From: Eubacteriales bacterium
Lineage (GTDB): Bacteria; Bacillota; Clostridia; Oscillospirales; Acutalibacteraceae
DNA length: 39,539 nt
Reading direction: 5' to 3'
NCBI GenBank assembly: GCA_029225565.1
Contig: JAQXWS010000010.1
Location: 1 to 39,539 of the forward strand
In this document: positions 5,305 to 39,539 of the stretch, one piece after another
How the letters are laid out: every line of letters starts with the position of its first letter
Position numbering within the stretch: the first letter of the stretch is position 1
Program-made: the position numbers and the translations under genes
Notes under the pieces: generated by a model
The model's input: the letters and a program-made list of their open reading frames with translations, nothing else
Databases searched by the model: none
Told to the model about the DNA's origin: nothing

Positions 5305-6933
5305 ATGAGCAAATATGTTATCACCTATGATATCGGTACTACCGGCATAAAGACCTGTCTTATCGAAATCGACCGGGAAATGAAAATTTTGGCGTCTTCA
5401 ACTGCAGGCTATAACCTGTATGTTGACGAGGAAACGGGCGTCAAGGGCGGCGCCGAGCAGGATGCTGACGAATGGTGGGAGGCAATGACCATTACCACAA
5501 AAACCGTGTTCGAAAAATCGCCCACAATCACCAAGGAGATGGTAGAGGGCATCAGCTTTTGCTCTGCAATGCAGGGCCTTGTGCTGGTTGACAAGGAGGG
5601 CAACTGCATCCGCCGTCCAATGACATATATGGACCAGAGAGCTCGTGAGGAGCTGCAAAATGGCATTGCCCACGGCGTACAAATTGCCGGTGCGGAAGTC
5701 ACAAAATGCCTAAAGTATTTGTACTACACCCAGGCTGTATCCTCATCAGTAAAGGACCCGATATGGAAGTACAAGTGGGTTGAGGCTCACGAGCCGGAAA
5801 ACTACAAGAAGATATACAAATGGCTGGATATTAAGGAATACCTCATTTGCAGACTGACCGGCGAGTTTGTTATGACAAACGACTCTGCGTTCGGTACTCT
5901 GCTCTACGATACAAGAAAGGGTCATGAGGGCTGGTGCAAGCCGGTCTGCGATATGGTGGGTGTTAACATCGAGCATTTGCCACCAATCAAAAAATCCACC
6001 GAAAAGGTTGGCGAGGTAACACAAAAAGCAGCCGATGAGCTTGGCCTTGCCGTAGGAACAGCCGTGTACGGCGGAGGTGGCGACGCATCCCTAATCGGCG
6101 TTGGCGCCGGTGCTGTAGAAATTGGCGACACACATATATATTCCGGTACATCCGGCTGGGTAGGAACAGTAGTTCCGGAGCAGTTTGTTGATGCCGGCGC
6201 CATGATGGCATCCATAGTGGGAGTTAACCCCAAGACATACAACTACTTTGGCGAGCTGGAGACCAGTAACAAGTGCGTAGGCTGGGTCAAGGACCACCTT
6301 GCACTGGACGAAATCGGTGTTTTCCTGAAGAGATACGGCAATGCCGCTGACAGTCTGGAGCAGATAGAATTCAATCTGTATGACTATCTGGAGGAGGTTA
6401 TTGACAGAGCTCAACCGGGCTCCGACGGTGTTGTATTCACCCCATGGCTCCACGGCAACAGATGTCCTTTTGAGGACCCAAATGCTGCCGGTATGTTCTT
6501 TAATATCCATCTGGATACAGGCAAGACAGAGCTTATTCGTGCAGTTGTTGAGGGTATCTGCTTCCACATGAGATGGATGCTGGAGAGACAGGAAGAAAAG
6601 AAAAAGGTAAAGGCCCTCAAGACATCCAACGAGGTTCGTTTCTGCGGTGGTGGAGCTCTGGGAGAAGCCACTTGCCAAATTCTTGCTGATATACTGCAGA
6701 GAGAAGTGGTGGTAGTTGAATCGCCCCAAAACATCGGTGCTGTAGGCGCAGCAGCTTGTATAGCAGTTGGTATGGGTATTATTCCATCAATCTTTGATGT
6801 CAAAAAACTAATTCCGATAAAGACTACATACAAGCCAAATCCTGCTAACAAAGCAGTATATGACAGGAATTACAAGGTGTTCAAAAACCTGTACAAAGCC
6901 AACAAGGAGAACTTTGCAATCCTAAACGGCTGA
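5305..6933 (+). CDS. FGGY family carbohydrate kinase (xylulokinase-like)
   Basis: A 542-residue sugar kinase of the FGGY/ASKHA superfamily that phosphorylates a sugar or polyol with ATP in the cytoplasm. Seen are the first phosphate motif YDIGTTGIKT at the N terminus, a MTYMDQRA substrate-region motif, GGGGDASLIGVGAGAV carrying the GDA catalytic aspartate, FTPWLHGNRCPFEDPNA, and the adenosine motif with GGGALGEATCQILADIL and NIGAVGAA. Overall it is closest in appearance to xylulokinases, but the natural substrate cannot be told. Start ATG 5305 follows GAGGAGG; the open frame upstream of it overlaps tetR. The gene lies 19 nt after tetR and is part of the regulon with the class II aldolase, suggesting a kinase-then-aldolase pathway. 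Confidence 0.9.
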   Translation: MSKYVITYDIGTTGIKTCLIEIDREMKILASSTAGYNLYVDEETGVKGGAEQDADEWWEAMTITTKTVFEKSPTITKEMVEGISFCSAMQGLVLVDKEGNCIRRPMTYMDQRAREELQNGIAHGVQIAGAEVTKCLKYLYYTQAVSSSVKDPIWKYKWVEAHEPENYKKIYKWLDIKEYLICRLTGEFVMTNDSAFGTLLYDTRKGHEGWCKPVCDMVGVNIEHLPPIKKSTEKVGEVTQKAADELGLAVGTAVYGGGGDASLIGVGAGAVEIGDTHIYSGTSGWVGTVVPEQFVDAGAMMASIVGVNPKTYNYFGELETSNKCVGWVKDHLALDEIGVFLKRYGNAADSLEQIEFNLYDYLEEVIDRAQPGSDGVVFTPWLHGNRCPFEDPNAAGMFFNIHLDTGKTELIRAVVEGICFHMRWMLERQEEKKKVKALKTSNEVRFCGGGALGEATCQILADILQREVVVVESPQNIGAVGAAACIAVGMGIIPSIFDVKKLIPIKTTYKPNPANKAVYDRNYKVFKNLYKANKENFAILNG

Positions 6934-37904: not shown

Positions 37905-39113
37905 ATGATAAACAAATCGTCAAAGCTCGACAATGTACTGTACGATGTGCGTGGCCCGGTAGTTGACGAGGCCGCAAGGATGGAGGCCAGAGGACTCAAC
38001 ATCCTAAAGCTGAATATCGGCAACCCTGCGCCCTTCGGATTTTGTACTCCCGACGAGGTAATTATGGATATGCAGCACCAGCTCAAGGAATGCCAGGGAT
38101 ATTCGGACTCAAAGGGATTATTTGCTGCTCGCAAGGCGATTATGCAATACTCTCAGCTAAAAAATATTCCCAATGTTACCATAGACGACATTTACACCGG
38201 CAACGGTGTCAGCGAATTAATCAATTTGTGTATGCAAGCTCTGTTGGATGCGGGTGACGAAATTCTTATTCCGGCTCCGGATTATCCGCTGTGGACCGCC
38301 ACTGCAACTCTGTCCGGCGGCAAGGCAGTGCACTATATCTGTGACGAACAGGCTGACTGGTATCCCGATATTGATGATATAAAAAGCAAAATTACCTCCA
38401 AAACAAAGGCAATCGTAATCATCAACCCCAACAACCCCACCGGCGCTCTGTACCCAAGGGAGGTGCTGGAGCAAATAGTTGATATTGCCAGAGAGAATAA
38501 CCTGATTATTTTTTCTGACGAAATATATGACAGACTGGTAATGGACGGTCAGGAGCATATATCCATTGCGTCGCTGGCTCCGGACCTGTTCTGCGTAACC
38601 TTTAGCGGATTATCCAAATCACATATGATTGCAGGCTTCCGTATCGGATGGATGATACTCAGCGGCAATAAGGGAATTGCCAGGGACTATATTGACGGCA
38701 TAAATATGCTGTCCAATATGCGCCTGTGCTCCAATGTGCCGGCACAGTCCGTGGTGCAGACTGCCTTGGGCGGCACCCAAAGTGTAGAAAAATATGTTAA
38801 GCCGGGCGGCAGAATATACCAGCAACGAGAATATATCTACAACGCCCTCAATGATATTCCCGGCATTTCGGTAGTGAAGCCAAAGGCTGCATTTTACGCA
38901 TTCCCCAAGATTGATACAAAGATGTATAACATCAAGGACGACGAGCAGTTTGCTTTGGATTTTCTCAGACAAAAGCAGGTACTGCTGGTACACGGAGGAG
39001 GATTCAACTGGGGAGAACCCGACCATTTCAGAATAGTATATTTGCCTCGACTCAGCGTACTCAAGGACTCCATGGAGGCCCTTGCAGATTTCCTGAAAGG
39101 GTACAGACAATAA
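37905..39113 (+). CDS. Class I/II aminotransferase, alanine transaminase (AlaA-like)
   Basis: A 402-residue PLP aminotransferase. Motifs seen are KLNIGNPAPFGFCTPDE, YTGNGVSELI, PDYPLWTA, INPNNPTGALY, SDEIYDRL and FSGLSKSHMIAGFRIGW, with the PLP lysine in GLSKSH. This pattern is very close to E. coli AlaA, which exchanges amino groups between alanine and 2-oxoglutarate (or pyruvate and glutamate). The second ATG (37905) was chosen because GGAGG is 7 nt upstream; it is only 1 nt from the first ATG (37899). The last 89 nt of the gene are repeated exactly, in reverse, at the end of the window. Confidence 0.88.
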   Translation: MINKSSKLDNVLYDVRGPVVDEAARMEARGLNILKLNIGNPAPFGFCTPDEVIMDMQHQLKECQGYSDSKGLFAARKAIMQYSQLKNIPNVTIDDIYTGNGVSELINLCMQALLDAGDEILIPAPDYPLWTATATLSGGKAVHYICDEQADWYPDIDDIKSKITSKTKAIVIINPNNPTGALYPREVLEQIVDIARENNLIIFSDEIYDRLVMDGQEHISIASLAPDLFCVTFSGLSKSHMIAGFRIGWMILSGNKGIARDYIDGINMLSNMRLCSNVPAQSVVQTALGGTQSVEKYVKPGGRIYQQREYIYNALNDIPGISVVKPKAAFYAFPKIDTKMYNIKDDEQFALDFLRQKQVLLVHGGGFNWGEPDHFRIVYLPRLSVLKDSMEALADFLKGYRQ

Positions 39114-39539
39114 ATCAAAACACCTTGTAGAACTATCCACAAGGCGTCAGACTGTCGATAAAGCGGGTTGAACCACGCAAAATAATGTATAATATATAAC
39201 CATTTCCGCCTCTCTTGAGTAAAGAAAGGCGGGTGCGATTTATCGCACTCGTAGAGATTGTAAAAGCGGCTTAGACATCTAATGATGAATCTAAGCCGCT
39301 TTTATAATCTCTATGAGTGCGATAAATCGCACCAACCTTTCTTTACTCAAGAGAGGCAGAAATCGATTACATATTATATTATTTGGCGTGGTTCAACCCA
39401 CTTTATCGACAGTCTGACACCTTGTGGGTAATTCCACAAGGTGTTGTTTATTATTGTCTGTATCCTTTCAGGAAATCTGCAAGGGCCTCCATGGAGTCCT
39501 TGAGTACGCTGAGTCGAGGCAAATATACTATTCTGAAAT
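39025..39539. repeat. Long inverted repeat: perfect outer arms (gene end) and diverged inner arms
   Basis: Positions 39451-39539 are the exact reverse complement of 39025-39113, the last 89 nt of the aminotransferase gene. Just past its stop codon the arms continue as an imperfect inverted repeat (39114-39275 with 39290-39450). Differences are mostly transitions, with one indel and a poorly matching AT-rich patch near 39187-39205. The loop is 39276-39289. Each inner arm holds smaller palindromes: ACACCTTG...CAAGG(C/T)GT at both outer ends and GTGCGAT-N2-ATCGCAC. The right palindrome (39418-39445), followed by TTGTTTATTATT, could end transcription on plus. No gene lies in 39114-39450. It could be a MITE-like element or an assembly fold-back. 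Confidence 0.85.
39418..39455 (+). terminator. Terminator-like hairpin in the right repeat arm
   Basis: ACACCTTGTGG (39418-39428) pairs with CCACAAGGTGT (about 39434-39444), followed by TGTTTATTATT. On plus it would end transcripts that read through the long hairpin from the aminotransferase gene. The left-arm copy (39120-39146) is weaker and faces minus. Confidence 0.6.

Follow-up and report, generated by a model that had tools for sequence, protein, structure and literature searches.

The right-hand end of the window, by which we mean the whole 39,539-nt stretch of DNA analyzed here, folds back on itself in two nested inverted repeats, and two findings lie one within the other: the end of the window is probably chimeric, and the repeat in which it turns belongs to a small transposable element that appears to duplicate the terminator hairpin at which it inserts. 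We hold these two layers jointly with good confidence. That the element represents a family of folded elements, found in many genera of one Clostridia family, whose insertion proceeds by structure-guided cutting at both feet of a terminator cruciform and duplicates a target as long as the hairpin, is a wider proposition toward which we lean.

The window is the complete contig C10, and its right arm therefore reaches the contig end; the source draft genome (G000) comprises 1.756 Mb in 85 contigs and is 91% complete. Both of the nested inverted repeats claimed by the initial annotation at 39025-39539 are present (Table 1). An inverted copy of the last 89 nt of the aminotransferase gene does stand at the window end, as had been described, but it is exact over 76 nt rather than throughout and matches at 88 of 89 positions overall. 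The single difference between the two gene ends, at position 39101, is a synonymous Gly codon change (GGG/GGA), and since this first mismatch falls inside the aminotransferase ORF, the identity does not break exactly at the stop codon as had been thought. The only relative of the aminotransferase detected at E ≤ 1e-60 was in genome G015 (80% identical), so that 2 of 80 genomes encode it when its own is included, and neither DNA nor protein comparison turned up another copy of the gene in the 91% of G000 represented in the draft.

Table 1. Features at the right-hand end of the window (contig C10)
Feature	Position	Strand	Remark
Aminotransferase ORF, 404 aa	37899..39113	+	3' end forms the outer left arm
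Outer left arm, 76 nt	39025..39100	+	Exact reverse complement of 39464-39539
Terminator-like hairpin, version 1	39120..39147	+	First hairpin, flush with the element; position as in duplicated hairpins elsewhere
Left terminal inverted repeat CAGACTGTCGATAAAG	39148..39163	+	
Copy 1 of the element, left half as far as the inner hairpin	39148..39261	+	
42-nt palindromic inner hairpin	39262..39303	.	Turning point of the contig
Left half of diverged element copy 2, reversed	39304..39416	-	Left end CAGACTGTCGATAAAG at 39401-39416, minus strand
Terminator-like hairpin, version 2	39417..39444	-	
Aminotransferase 3' end, version 2, 88/89 nt	39451..39539	-	Contig end

The inner arms (39114-39275 and 39290-39450) agree in 145 of 164 aligned columns and differ by 14 substitutions, 10 of them transitions, and 5 gap columns, a divergence of 11-12%. 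Inner-arm sequence gave 88 matches in the genome on both strands (E ≤ 0.001), and a sequence recurring in this way is not a chance resemblance. The inner arm is a genome-wide repeat with a terminator-like hairpin before it, which the window alone cannot show. The earlier proposal that the inner repeat is real, MITE-like, and older than the outer identity is thereby upheld; the accompanying suggestion of a single element with the inner arms as its paired ends is not, the arms being instead the same left half of two element copies. That left half occurs twice in the window, face to face, and the 3' part of the element is absent from both copies. The 42-nt palindrome at the turn is also present in 15 other fetched loci of the same genome, and in none of the 15 when extended by one base on each side. 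Allowing up to 3 substitutions, we compared 33 further inner hairpins (rows read by eye), of which 28 continue into the element 3' part, 2 into other sequence, and 3 are loop-inverted; in none of the 33 does the left arm stand on both sides, turning back as it does in the window. Inversion of the inner-hairpin loop was seen in L011, L021, and L023 (contigs C22, C83, and C72 of G000), suggesting local inversion.

Judging from the sequence, the fold-back at the window end most likely reflects a chimera in which assembly joined two strain variants, and a chimera at a contig end was the best supported of the options that the initial annotation had offered. The anatomy, the shared palindrome, the divergence of the arms, and the lack of any other examined copy that turns back are observed. 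The contig would leave the aminotransferase gene, cross the terminator hairpin, and enter the left half of the dispersed element; inside the 42-nt palindrome it would reverse along the same element half and the same gene end of another strain, and it would end 76 nt into the gene, where both strains agree. We infer that the join dates from library preparation or assembly and that the other strain supplied the second arm. Both sides show the same gene end but not the same form of its terminator hairpin, which agrees with the presence of two strains in a single metagenome. A comparable trace elsewhere in G000, read by eye, is a locus present in two slightly different forms, on contigs C18 and C53. 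Pairs of contigs in G000 overlap by exactly 141 nt at the repeat, which we take to be typical of graph assembly at k 141, and the 76-nt outer arm of the window differs from these overlaps. A search of the genome for the second hairpin copy, expected beyond the 3' side of the element in the window, did not find it. Contig C27, the sole other hairpin match, was considered as the true neighbor of the contig and rejected: the matching sequence is coding-like, and a reversed-pattern control also scored.

Three other origins of the fold-back were weighed. Snap-back or fold-back copying of a single molecule, as a polymerase or amplification artifact, would suit the position of the turn, in a strong hairpin where the contig ends. 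Arms copied from one template would be identical, however, as would those of a recent fold-back duplication, and the substitutions and gap columns counted above exclude the copying of one molecule, so that this origin is scarcely credible. A real inverted duplication, with a second aminotransferase gene tail to tail with the first and a terminator and half element for each, is improbable. The arms are continuous in the assembly, and G000 has tail-to-tail elements in the interior of a 102-kb contig (L034, contig C38); against it, no other gene copy was detected in the 91% complete genome, which also goes against the convergent second gene copy kept identical that had been suggested earlier, the arms join exactly in a palindrome common to 15 loci with the element 3' part missing from both, and the second gene copy ends after 76 nt at the contig end. 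That two element copies in inverted orientation recombined inside the cell, at the inner palindrome, is more doubtful again: the loop-inverted copies and the copies with unlike hairpins on their two sides suggest that such events occur, but both flanks of the window's turn are the same gene end, so that one cell would need both alleles. In L034 (positions 316-912; C38 10916-11512), the two tail-to-tail elements share one 43-nt palindrome and have their own outer hairpins.

Within G000, 41 left ends of the element were found with at most 2 mismatches. Copies outside the window show the complete order. From the 5' side, it is a locus-specific hairpin, the left end CAGACTGTCGATAAAG, a variable stretch, the inner hairpin, and GGCGTTTTTCG, followed toward the 3' side by a second long hairpin (GTACC..GTAC), then by CTCGAAGTCTG, which repeats the left end in inverted orientation, and finally by a palindrome of 43 nt with CTACACGCTGA at its end. 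Over 67 units, the median length is 277 nt, and the longest stop-free run is 100 codons. The outermost ends, CAGACTGTCGATAAAG and CAGCGTGT(A or C)GAAAAAG, form inverted repeats, the latter being the reverse complement of the palindrome end, and these terminal repeats are alike at 11 or more of 16 positions in 81% of the 67 units (control 0.4%). An alignment of 25 units, selected to be less than about 93% alike, predicts a fold of five main helices in which 24 of 60 pairs show compensatory changes; the structure was predicted from the same alignment, so the percentage paired is biased toward structure. Shuffled alignments gave 14.9 covarying pairs, with none of 500 reaching 24, and sliding the partners by 1-3 columns left 3-6. 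The end repeats themselves covary at two pairs. We take the element to be a small, probably noncoding transposable element that has inverted repeats at its termini and folds in a conserved way. Several copies in G000 hold a nested repeat in the variable region, a hairpin-rich insert of about 68-75 nt (GGGTGC..GCACC); it was seen in L043 and L046 (C53 and C18) and in L034, L041, and L042, and a similar insert is present in L088 and L108, two copies of another draft genome. A minimal copy, with about 33 nt of left end flanked by near-identical hairpins, lies on the minus strand of L097 near 5650-5690.

The fetched loci contain 149 distinct copies with a left end, 68 with the right palindrome, and 67 with both flanks. 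To each of the 67 we applied a test for a direct repeat (score ≥ 12) between the 45 nt before and the 50 nt after the element. A flanking direct repeat was found in 53, compared with 2 of 661 mismatched flank pairs; the 53 were drawn from 13 of 15 assemblies, and in 28 the repeat is identical. Repeat length varies from 17 to 42 nt (median 25) and follows the span of the predicted hairpin, with a Spearman coefficient of 0.85 and agreement within 3 nt in 49 of 53 copies. The 3' end of the hairpin is flush with the junction in 40 of the 53 and at most 2 nt off in all of them, and the repeat is better as a direct than as an inverted match in 50, better inverted in 2, and tied in 1. Across all copies with a left end, a hairpin adjoins that end in 121 of 149 (control windows, 71 of 690). 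Genome G022 holds 13 copies whose bodies are 93.5% alike (median of 78 pairs), and the similarity score of their hairpins is 5.5 between copies versus 25 within a copy. The hairpins are a property of the locus rather than of the element. They resemble intrinsic terminators: 6 or more T in the 10 nt across the right hairpin end were present in 55% of cases versus 7.5% of background, and A-rich sequence lies ahead of the left hairpin.

The repeat test was failed by 14 of the 67 copies, of which L036 and L055 appear alike by eye; also by eye, 12 of the 14 have a hairpin at the left junction and 11 at the right. We read the failing copies other than L036 and L055 as recombined between copies or as lying on chimeric or misjoined contigs. 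The pass rate was 7 of 13 in G000 versus 46 of 54 elsewhere (Fisher p 0.02), and G000 fails most (6/13). No locus was seen with the same hairpin in an unoccupied state, and orthologous gene ends without the element have, by eye, a single, different hairpin. The pair L145/L190, the one locus at which both flanks align, was considered as an occupied and an empty site and was rejected because L190, a G005 match to the element's interior, holds a different short repeat in its place. Two pairs of loci, L053/L173 and L070/L175 (G019 and G022), are occupied sites in common at which the hairpin differs between species and the two hairpin copies within a genome are the same or nearly so, pointing to repeated insertion or concerted change.

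Gene context was assessed by crude gene calls for 107 copies with enough left flank, of which 23 lie between convergent genes. Between co-directional genes, the element is in one orientation 8 times and in the other 8 times, as far as crude ORF calls allow. At one orthologous gene end in two species, the element has opposite orientations (L079 and L106), suggesting separate insertions, and tandem hairpin-element-hairpin-element arrays occur at L075 and L091. These observations bear on the alternative that the element is immobile, a structured 3'-UTR or terminator-linked RNA whose flanking hairpins are kept alike by function. The covarying fold, the position at gene ends, and a terminator-like T-rich stretch after the inner hairpin would all suit such an RNA. 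The even split of orientations just given goes against it, as do near-identical bodies beside unrelated hairpins in one genome, the tandem copies, the opposite orientations at orthologous gene ends, and the absence from Rfam of a family for the element, and we regard an immobile RNA as unlikely. In two species, at L132 (G099) and L135 (G100), which share a gene pair and a near-identical terminator hairpin, the element is reversed relative to its flanks, and the second hairpin of L132 is the reverse complement of the first.

We conclude from the flanking repeats that the mobile element probably inserts at intrinsic terminators, selected by hairpin shape rather than by sequence, and appears to duplicate the whole hairpin. 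In the mechanism that we propose, the terminator would be extruded as a cruciform, a transposase acting in trans would link the 3' ends of the element to the 5' foot of the hairpin on each strand, and gap filling would produce one full hairpin on each side. Termination of the host gene could persist at the hairpin that retains the T-tract, so the burden of an insertion may be slight, and with a terminator left on each side the element could spread cheaply. With a target duplication set by the shape of the target and not by a constant distance, recognition of structure during transposition would become open to direct testing. The paired hairpins could also be read as a bar code, in which unlike hairpins around one copy flag recombination or misassembly; this matters for draft genomes broken at such repeats, the window included.

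Two known systems resemble the proposed insertion in their use of hairpins or palindromes. CRISPR spacer integration by Cas1-Cas2 likewise copies a palindromic repeat in full, through joining at its two borders; here, by contrast, no Cas1 was found in G000, and the targets are unrelated terminators. Group IIC introns are not known to duplicate the target hairpin. They insert beside terminator or attC stem-loops (PMC7923331), a likeness to the element, but they are retroelements with a ribozyme fold, whereas the element has no Rfam match that passes the cutoff.

Closer in behavior are IS1272 and TnSha1 of the IS1182 family, which insert, in the parts of the sources cited, at stem-loops of any sequence, terminators included, and in both orientations (PMC5678879, PMC4923244). 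The likeness extends to targets that vary in sequence and size, several of them confirmed terminators, to both orientations at one terminator, to 16-bp terminal repeats, and to reports of extra end copies (passages of PMC5678879 and PMC4923244). IS1272 is described there as deleting the stem-loop wholly or partly, with no target duplication, and duplication of the whole hairpin is drawn as a possible pathway only (PMC5678879, passage cited). The element differs from both, as they appear in those passages, in duplicating the whole stem-loop (53/67) and in carrying no transposase. It would thus behave like a structure-targeted transposon with the opposite outcome at the target, and we liken it to IS1182 by behavior only. 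If our reading is right, the element would be an observed case of whole-stem-loop duplication, hitherto drawn merely as a possible pathway.

Prokaryotic MITEs, in the account cited, are shorter than 500 bp, structured, and present in many intergenic copies with terminal inverted repeats and flanking direct repeats (PMC10969869), and the element is likewise short, noncoding, and multicopy; its termini are inverted repeats, and the target is directly repeated on its two sides. It differs from that account in a flanking repeat of variable length equal to the hairpin, in the lack of any parent element found, and in an inner fold conserved by covariation across genera (PMC10969869). Long target repeats of variable length, from 8 to 514 bp, are known from IS1549 and IS1634 (PMC2266710); these are full insertion sequences, and in the passage cited the length is not tied to a hairpin. 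In the open-license papers searched, we found no element shown to duplicate terminator hairpins.

Neither a mobilizing enzyme nor an autonomous copy was detected by left and right end spacing in six genomes or in the odd loci examined. The spacing gave copies of about 234 nt end to end between inner repeats, together with some unpaired ends. Five unpaired right ends were fetched; L186 and L188 were rejected as carriers of a transposase, since they consist of a gene and a decayed 3' part. The truncated copies L064, L067, L076, L112, L129, L133, and L169 hold no longer element in the stretch shown. The Y1 transposase domain PF01797 is absent from G000 (91% complete); 38 of the 80 genomes encode it, among them 10 of the 27 that bear the element. 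The Cas1 domain PF01867 is likewise absent from the 91% complete G000, despite about 40 element copies there, and is encoded in 11 of 80 genomes and in 5 of 27 element-bearing ones. A search of the window against Rfam gave no match, group II intron RNA included, and a search of eight loci at E ≤ 0.1 returned only IsrM, with 32.6 bits against a gathering score of 376.

A distant DNA search with one G000 copy gave no match in plasmids or phages, and no viral contig matched a 19-base pattern. The 51 viral stretches that matched a 15-base pattern were rejected as chance matches because none fits the element model. The initial annotation had proposed searching related genomes for the inner element, and the search found it, with copies that could be counted and flanking direct repeats beside them. 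Within the genus, 27 of 80 genomes contain the exact left end; elsewhere in the order, 5 of 294 genomes gave single near-matches, the same level as the control. The exact left end understates the spread, since a covariance model finds relatives in other genera. With at most 7 candidates scored per genome and some matches partial, the model detected the element in 28 of 250 family genomes, which belong to 19 of the 135 genera sampled (E ≤ 0.001), and on the same scoring it gave matches at E ≤ 1e-12 in 12 genera besides that of the window. The duplicated hairpin (score ≥ 11) was found at 13 of 19 loci with E ≤ 1e-12, compared with 2 of 342 controls, and at 11 of the 17 such loci from other genera alone. 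Named relatives carrying the element are drafts of uncultured Clostridia, Eubacterium sp., Clostridium sp., and Ruminococcaceae UBA7101.
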